DNA of 64,000 bases from Rhizophagus irregularis. Taxonomy: Eukaryota > Glomeromycota > Glomeromycetes > Glomerales > Glomeraceae. The stretch spans positions 310,001-374,000 of the forward strand of contig NC_089432.1 in NCBI RefSeq assembly GCF_026210795.1, written 5' to 3'. Both the position numbers and the translations under genes were made by a program. The notes under the pieces are model-generated. The model worked only from the letters and a program-made list of their open reading frames with translations, was not told the DNA's origin and did not search any database. This document shows, piece after piece, positions 30,371 through 46,209 of the stretch; position 1 is the stretch's first letter; every line of letters starts with the position of its first letter.

Positions 30371-30534
30371 GTGAGAAAAAATTTAGATTTATTATTTCTG
30401 TAAAAACTCCGTAAAAATGAGCCTTTCACAGATCCATTCATGGAAAATGTAAATAAATCGATAAATTCTGTGATATAAGGTTATTAATTCCGGAAATATG
30501 AGCCTTTTACGGAAAAAAAATGGAATTTACAGGG
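30371..30534 (-). mobile_element. second copy of the intron-forming MITE (intergenic)
   Basis: In reverse complement this matches the insert at 45276-45461: it starts CCCTGTAAATTCC and shares AAAGGCTCATATTTCCGGAA, TTATATCAC, GGATCTGTGAAAGGCTCAT and CGGAGTTTTTACA, with about eight mismatches over the central 120 bp. Its far end is degraded. It lies outside genes, which shows the sequence is a mobile repeat. Confidence 0.7.
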
Positions 30535-45015: not shown

Positions 45016-46209
45016 ATGCCTGATACGAAAATCAATTCAAATAATAATGATTTTACAAAAATTAATGATTCAATCAATGAATTTATTCAAATTATTAAAA
45101 ATTTTGATAAAATGAATATAAAAGAAATAGAACCTACAACTAAAAATATCAATAAATATATTTTTGAAGGAGATATAAGTATTGTGATTGATGAATTAGT
45201 TAATCTTATTTTTAATAAATTAAATGAAGGTAATGATGAAATAATAATTAAACAACATGTTTTAAATTATATTAACCCTGTAAAAAAAGTCAATCCGTTT
45301 TTTTTATTCCATCTTTTTTCCGTAAAAGGCTCATATTTCCGGAATTAATAACTTTATATCACGGAATTTATCGAATTATTTGCATTTTCCGTGAATGGAT
45401 CCGTGAAAGGCTCATTTTCACGGAGTTTTTACAAAAATAACGGATAAAATTTTTTATAGGGTAATAATAAGAAGATAAATTCACAAGAAATCGATAATTG
45501 GCTTTTAAATAATCAAAATAATTCAAATTCTATTTATTTATTTGGATATTTTAATTATCATGGAATTGAGATTGATCTTAATAGGAAAAAAGCAATTGAA
45601 TTATATCATAAATCAGCAGAATTAGGAAATTATGTAGCTCAAATAGATCTTGCTAATATTTATATTCATGGAAAAGGAGTTGAAAAAAATCCTGATTTTG
45701 CTTTTAAATTATCTAAAAAATTAGCAGAAAAAGGAATTCCAAATGCAATAAATAGATTAGGATATTGTTATAATAATGGAGTTGGAACTGTTATTGATAA
45801 ACAAAAAGCATTTGAATCATACAAAAAAGCAGCAGATTTAGGAAATTCAACAGGAATAAGTAACTTGGGCTATTGTTATAAAAATGGATTTGGAACTCAA
45901 ATTAATATACAAAAAGCATTTGATTTATATCAAAAAGCAGCAGATTTGGGCAATTCATATGGAATAAATAATTTAGGATGGTGTTATGATGGTGGGGTTG
46001 GAACTAATGTTGATAGGCAAAAGGCATTTGAATTGTACCAAAAATCTGCAAATTTGGGAAATTATTTAGGTCAATATAATATTGCTTTAATATATGAAAT
46101 TGGAGACTTAGTTGAAGAAGATATTGATCAAGCAATTTATTGGTACAAAAAATCTGCTGAACAAGGATATAAACATGCTCAAAAAAAATTAGACAAATTA
46201 ATAAAATAA
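45016..46209 (+). CDS. Sel1-repeat protein, coding exon split by a MITE-derived intron
   Basis: ATG 45016 opens MPDTKINSNNNDFTKINDSI; the region EFIQIIKNFDKMNIKEIEPT matches the linker that follows the kinase domain in the two kinase-Sel1 genes here. The frame is open to 45279, then meets a 186-bp MITE with stops. Splicing 45280-45459 (GTAAAAAAAG to TTTTTTATAG, 180 nt) gives 1014 nt, 337 residues, with the second exon 45460-46209 fully open. At the join, YINP-GNNKKIN replaces the YINN-KIN of the relatives, so the net gain is three residues. The rest is about six Sel1 repeats (GVGTVIDKQKAFESYKKAAD and so on). No kinase domain lies upstream; the start is 187 bp from the big transposon's end. 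Role: protein-binding scaffold. Without splicing it would be a pseudogene cut at residue 110. Confidence 0.75.
45276..45461 (+). mobile_element. MITE inserted in an exon, carrying splice sites at its ends
   Basis: Inverted ends CCCTGTAAAAAA and, from the right, CCCTATAAAAAA, flanked by TAA on both sides (45273-45275, 45462-45464), a Harbinger-type 3-bp duplication. Removing the element and one TAA gives TATATTAATAATAAG, matching the intact relatives. The left end contains GTAAAA (45280) and the right end TTATAG (to 45459), which work as donor and acceptor. A second copy is at 30371-30534. Confidence 0.8.

Follow-up and report, generated by a model that had tools for sequence, protein, structure and literature searches.

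The question raised by this locus of Rhizophagus irregularis is whether a short repeat inside the coding exon of a Sel1 gene is removed from the message as a ready-made intron or has mostly disabled the gene. The window, which is the whole stretch of 64,000 nucleotides that was analysed, lies on contig C4 (5,894,816 bases), and the genome searched comprised 146.7 Mb in 32 contigs. The original prediction described a 186-bp repeat with inverted ends and a TAA target duplication inside a Sel1 coding exon. This description was confirmed from the sequence, the element being situated within the single coding exon of the gene, and the features are as follows.

45016 to 45279, forward strand: upstream part of the Sel1 gene, with the ATG at 45016; 264 nt, or 88 codons, if spliced at the element ends
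45273 to 45275, no strand assigned: left copy of the target-site duplication TAA, read from the sequence
45276 to 45461, forward strand: MITE-like non-autonomous DNA transposon with terminal inverted repeats, 186 bp, the family consensus also being 186 bp
45276 to 45287, forward strand: left terminal inverted repeat CCCTGTAAAAAA, which includes the candidate donor CCCT/GTAAAA with GT at 45280
45280 to 45459, forward strand: hypothetical intron of 180 nt, predicted from the ends alone by frame arithmetic and splice-site scoring
45346 to 45348, forward strand: first in-frame stop (TAA) with the element retained, the open frame ending at 45345
45450 to 45461, forward strand: right terminal inverted repeat TTTTTTATAGGG, which includes the candidate acceptor TTTTTTATAG/GG with AG ending at 45459
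45462 to 45464, no strand assigned: right copy of the target-site duplication TAA, read from the sequence
45460 to 46209, forward strand: downstream part of the Sel1 gene, 750 nt with the stop, 249 codons and six Sel1 stretches

The terminal inverted repeats are 12 bp each with one mismatch between the ends, and the GT and AG claimed for the element ends were found within them. The element is short and has no coding capacity which, alongside the inverted ends, target duplication and dispersed copies, marks it as MITE-like. Read-through of the retained element stops translation after 110 codons. Splicing at 45279/45460 would yield an open frame of 337 codons, equal to the empty site plus three codons, with the predicted junction ...TTAACCCT joined to GGTAATAATAAG..., the protein sequence INPGNNKK across the join and Asn-Pro-Gly as the added residues. 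The joined protein carries Sel1 repeats. The downstream part contains no Met codon and hence no ATG start of its own, and its frame is intact, a combination in favor of splicing.

Six DNA searches of the genome were conducted with the window copy, a decayed copy at 30 kb and four other copies as queries. The pooled searches, tallied by hand with two short fragments excluded, identified at least 81 distinct places besides the 30-kb copy. For each query the best 40 of 820-1014 flagged candidates were scored, a sample that leans to near-consensus copies. The 79 loci examined with flanks were reduced to 74 copies by removal of four repeated places and of L015, which has the flanks of L014; for 29 of the 74 the flanks were only about 350 nt per side. 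Among the matches listed for the window-copy query, 40 of 41 cover at least 179 of the 186 positions at 94-100% identity, the 41st being a short fragment. Across the 74 copies, identity to the window copy is mostly 92-98% and the median divergence from the 186-bp consensus is 3.3%. An exact 3-bp target duplication flanks 49 of the 74 copies, compared to 2.7% expected by chance per copy, and the 49 comprise 28 different triplets, of which TAA is one and no signature of the family. These results bear on the reading that the element is an assembly or haplotype artefact absent from this site in the living genome, which is extremely improbable given clean ends, a perfect target duplication and membership in an ordinary family that has comparable insertions at other places.

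PIF/Harbinger elements produce a TWA-type 3-bp target duplication. The 28 triplets among the 49 exact duplications rule out this superfamily. The termini of EnSpm elements are CAC..GTG and those of Plavaka elements are TGT..ACA or CATCA..TGATG in the available text of PMC12730594; the family termini CCC..GGG match neither EnSpm/CACTA nor Plavaka as given there, although the 3-bp duplication taken alone is compatible with EnSpm or PlavakaB by the same account (PMC12730594). The original prediction also placed a parent repeat 15 kb away, a claim that did not survive the comparison. The feature at that place is the following.

30376 to 30526, reverse strand: decayed copy of the same family without either end, 90.7% identical over 151 bp

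Copies more similar to the window copy are on other contigs, the most similar among the matches listed being L002-L004 at 98%. On C22, L014 and L015 lie about 128 kb apart within stretches that are 94.7% identical over about 3 kb, and the pair is a segmental duplication carrying the element.

The two relatives of the host gene in the window, at 10.8 kb on the reverse strand and at about 49.2 kb on the forward strand, run unbroken through the insertion position, in agreement with the original prediction that relatives have no intron there. A protein search of the genome listed at least 71 Sel1 matches that cross the site without a change of frame and cover 300 or more of the 335 residues, and 69 of these 71 are free of stops with one stop in each of the other two. 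Since these listed relatives are uninterrupted through the site, the insertion is derived, and an ancestral intron at this position is ruled out. The length at the site is 25-29 residues in 40 aligned relatives versus 31 in the would-be spliced product. The structural model of a relative, P0001 (mean pLDDT 85.4), places the site within the final turn of helix 73-87, adjacent to loop 88-91. The model is of P0001 and not of the gene itself; it suggests that three added residues might be tolerated at the helix end or loop, which would suit an element that is spliced. A separate observation is that contig C4 holds 64 of the 71 listed near-full-length Sel1 matches, this single family being conspicuously expanded there.

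The original prediction stressed that removal of 180 nt keeps phase 0 and leaves three extra codons. The arithmetic is correct; it fails as evidence for an intron, being true of any forward insertion. The splice scar is composed of CCCT, GG and the 3-bp duplication (4+2+3 = 9 nt), and precise splicing gave 0 bad outcomes in 45,384 open contexts representing any target and phase, the frame being kept with no new stop. Since the 9-nt scar is free of stops in all contexts, a restored frame is expected wherever a forward copy hits an exon, and frame restoration and "phase 0" are a property of the family. That the scar preserves the frame and introduces no stop in any of these contexts is also a point in favor of the reading in which the spliceosome uses CCCT/GTAAAA and TTTTTTATAG/GG, cuts 180 nt and gives rise to a 337-residue protein, the family then being introner-like and able to insert into coding exons in forward orientation without harm. 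The left-end GT and the right-end AG are retained together in 60 of the 74 copies, wherever located, which likewise favors that reading, although a feature so common across the family is no evidence of intron function at this site. Insertions in reverse orientation count against it, since the left end then reads CCCTAT and lacks GT.

The age of the insertion determines the weight that the open downstream exon (exon 2) can bear. The window copy has five differences from the consensus, of which four are subfamily markers present in 12-19 copies and the fifth, at position 159, is common to L002 only.

45434, forward strand: G to A change at element position 159, which destroys an internal TTTTTACAG acceptor-like site

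The alignment column at position 159 has G in 72 of the 74 copies and A in two (L001 and L002); a stricter string match at the TTTTTACAG site gave AG in 60, AA in 2 and 12 unassignable. The copy closest to the window copy is 3 alignment columns apart among the 74. On this count of differences the insertion is very young, its 186 bp carrying roughly one private mutation. At one private mutation, exon 2 is expected to hold about 4 substitutions, and 6.3% of its point mutations were computed to be nonsense. Assuming a kappa of 2 and 0.1 indels per substitution, the probability that a dead exon 2 is still open is 0.74, 0.54 and 0.29 at 0.5, 1 and 2 private mutations, respectively, and only 0.05 at the 95% upper bound of the age. 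With an insertion of such recent date, an open downstream exon is weak evidence of function. Thus, the 750-nt downstream frame that the original prediction found open is indeed open, whereas its use as evidence of function is undercut by a probability of about 0.54 for a dead exon, and the intact exon as proof of function was set aside by the age calculation. For the same reason it lends little to a ready-made intron. Nor does the calculation establish that the gene is dead; with an older insertion, which retains a small probability, the open exon would count.

Splice signals were scored against a set of introns from the same genome. A total of 26 exon junctions were examined (8 in the window and 18 in four CCT genes). 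Manual selection retained 17 donors and 16 acceptors, contributed by three CCT genes and, within the window, by two kinase-Sel1 genes. Nine ambiguous junctions were dropped, one of them GC-AG-like, which biases the set toward canonical sites. Nine of the 17 donors were deduced without transcripts, and in the CCT genes the joins were assessed from HMM positions, reading frame and the conservation of CCT proteins. The element donor CCT/GTAAAA scored -0.3 and ranked 13th of 29 GTs in the gene; in the window, 1175 of 2725 GTs scored at least as high. Only 1 of the 17 reference donors scored below it in a leave-one-out comparison, placing it below the other 16. The last exon base in the 17 donors is G in 15, A in 2 and T in none, and the element donor has T. 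Both the score and the T speak against use of this donor, while one inferred intron of a CCT gene also starts with GTAAAA, following ATG (ATG/GTAAAA), which speaks for it. The acceptor behaved differently: its score of 9.5 was the highest among the 53 AGs of the gene, and of 2561 AGs across the window 5 equalled or exceeded it. Two further features are relevant to splicing.

45438 to 45441, forward strand: possible branch site TAAC suggested by the sequence, with the A at 45440 located 19 nt before the AG end
45230 to 45235, forward strand: GTAATG in the upstream exon, the top-scoring donor-like GT of the gene (9.9), in the context AAG/GTAATG

An acceptor that is the best in the gene, with TAAC 19 nt before its AG, is what an intron contained within the element would be expected to have. 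The absence from the window copy of the internal TTTTTACAG acceptor-like AG kept in 72 of 74 copies is also in its favor, as this loss would favor the terminal acceptor; L002 shares the change, which may therefore predate the insertion. In the predicted RNA fold, the ends pair in a 12-bp terminal stem that holds both splice sites (z = -6.0 versus shuffles), and the donor would thus be buried, a point against splicing.

The contrast between acceptor and donor raises another reading, in which the terminal acceptor is spliced to a donor of the upstream exon, the best being 45230 (AAG/GTAATG), with frameshifted messages as the product. Copies of the family would then mainly bring 3' splice sites in both orientations and not whole introns. 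No sites in the gene score above this acceptor (9.5) and this donor (9.9), and frame arithmetic indicates that joining the two shifts the frame. Strong 3' splice-site-like ends are present in both orientations (TTTTTTATAG 9.5, TTTTTTACAG 10.3), the latter being the reverse-orientation end, which is as this reading requires, and acceptor trapping could occur wherever a copy lies inside a transcription unit. The scores rest on a small intron set, however, and the exonic GTs in the intronless relatives are presumably unused. We consider such trapping quite improbable as the main fate of this transcript.

The copies were also compared with the coding sequence around them. Only 1 of the 74 copies, the window copy with a 336-codon frame across the empty site, was cleanly inside an intact host coding exon, a count from which short exons could be missed. 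At minimum ORF lengths of 150, 120 and 100 aa, 2, 3 and 3 of 45 insertion sites fell within ORFs, compared with 5.6, 7.8 and 11.0% of nearby positions, and neither enrichment nor depletion of the family in coding sequence was detected with these 45 sites, a sample of low power. The single clean copy and the lack of enrichment are both arguments against a family of ready-made introns. A Pfam scan was conducted with 141 of 177 nearby ORFs, 35 low-complexity ORFs and the upstream part of L001 being left out. The matches besides Sel1 were to phosphomannose isomerase, RNase H and F-box, with two weak others (E 0.004), and were assigned to L023, L029 and L011 by reading the ORFs. L029 is a reversed copy within a frame with the RNase H match, which is taken as a LINE, and one of the two sites in ORFs of at least 150 aa has an RNase H match. 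L011 is a reversed copy inside an F-box gene already broken by an in-frame stop. The L002 copy, in forward orientation, falls within the last part of an N/Q-rich ORF, for which a protein search found a single relative, P0133; comparison with P0133 suggests that this frame is broken apart from the element. At L023, a forward copy at 1501-1686 lies shortly upstream of the start of the phosphomannose isomerase gene, which is on the opposite strand.

The products were also sought among 5.8 billion clustered proteins. The best match to the spliced product was at most 79% identical among the best 120 of 1659 proteins, and for the 110-residue product 12 proteins were listed, none above 82% identity and that over half its length. 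As a control, 8 intact relatives encoded in the same genome were looked up in the protein list; 3 were present at 100%, though all 8 score high enough to be listed. Since the list omits 5 of the 8, the missing spliced product is weak evidence against splicing.

Overall, the results are best explained by a fresh and mostly disabling insertion of a MITE in the Sel1 gene, with precise splicing possible, a reading to which we assign a probability of roughly 0.6. A member of a young, nearly homogeneous MITE-like family entered the single coding exon of one gene of the large Sel1-repeat family with duplication of TAA, so recently, at about one private mutation, that the element and the gene have both had little time to decay. 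Most transcripts would probably keep the element or be mis-spliced via the strong terminal acceptor; translation would then end after about 110 codons and the allele would be mostly null, a loss presumably tolerated because of the many intact Sel1 relatives. Precise removal as CCCT/GT...AG/GG would be possible and is predicted to add three residues near the helix end of an otherwise full-length protein. The evidence from the sequence thus points to a true MITE insertion of recent date whose ends resemble those of an intron, for which splicing is possible and predicted to be weak; clean splicing is doubtful, although a real prospect. The proposal that the MITE is a ready-made intron is upheld in so far as a mobile element with frame-restoring ends occupies a formerly intronless exon, and is weakened by a poor donor, its burial in a stem and the lack of enrichment in coding sequence. 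Splicing of the element as a ready-made intron is rather unlikely. The broader reading is distinctly unlikely, in which a frame-safe introner family exists in Glomeromycotina and forward exonic insertions become instant introns, the ends and 3-bp duplication leaving three stop-free codons for any phase and target; the window copy would then have been caught within about one mutation of insertion with its internal competing acceptor lost.

A maize Ds transposon insertion was reportedly described as an intron by Giroux et al. in 1994. As at this locus, a DNA transposon is located in an exon with splice sites possibly near its ends. A review gives indirect evidence for introns derived from transposon insertions in its available text (PMC3443670), whereas splicing in the Sel1 gene is only a prediction. 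The nearest precedent in the accessible text is the introner of Aureococcus, which carries both splice sites and whose splicing adds 12 nt in frame, 4 nt from the element and 8 nt from the duplication (Gozashti et al. 2022, PMC9860276). A comparable in-frame scar is predicted here, 9 nt in total, of which the element would contribute 6 nt and the duplication 3. The elements of Aureococcus differ in that they are identified as introns, whereas here there is one clean exonic copy in 74 and splicing is predicted (PMC9860276). Multi-copy intron-creating sequences of fungi are represented in Pezizomycotina by introner-like elements and stwintrons, according to the available texts (PMC9860276, PMC8469720, PMC12403724). 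The present family resembles them as a multi-copy fungal sequence; however, ascomycetes are described as an outlier for DNA-transposon signatures (PMC9860276, available text), while this element has terminal inverted repeats with 3-bp duplications. The 2024 curation of R. irregularis transposable elements defines a MITE as an element with terminal inverted repeats of 50 bp-1 kb and no transposase domain (PMC11075540, available text), a definition that this element fits. The same text gives no description of this family, and the words "intron" and "exon" are absent from its main text (PMC11075540). No report of introners in Glomeromycotina or of this family was found in the open-licence literature as available, and neither "Glomero" nor "Mucoromyc" occurs in the main text of PMC9860276. 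If the element is spliced, intron gain by a DNA transposon would have been caught at birth, the reading frame being safeguarded in an unusual way by the element itself, and no introner reports for this fungal group were found in the open-licence literature searched, as available. If it is unspliced, the insertion is an ordinary disabling one and a caution, namely that neither a frame restored by calculation nor an open downstream exon is evidence of splicing for insertions so young.

In two CCT genes, L092 on C27 and L093 on C13, one junction is best read as a GC-AG intron with a GCAAGT donor. Another junction of these genes has a GTATCC donor and resembles a minor (U12) intron, a class of which 205 are reported for R. 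irregularis in the available text of PMC10639083.
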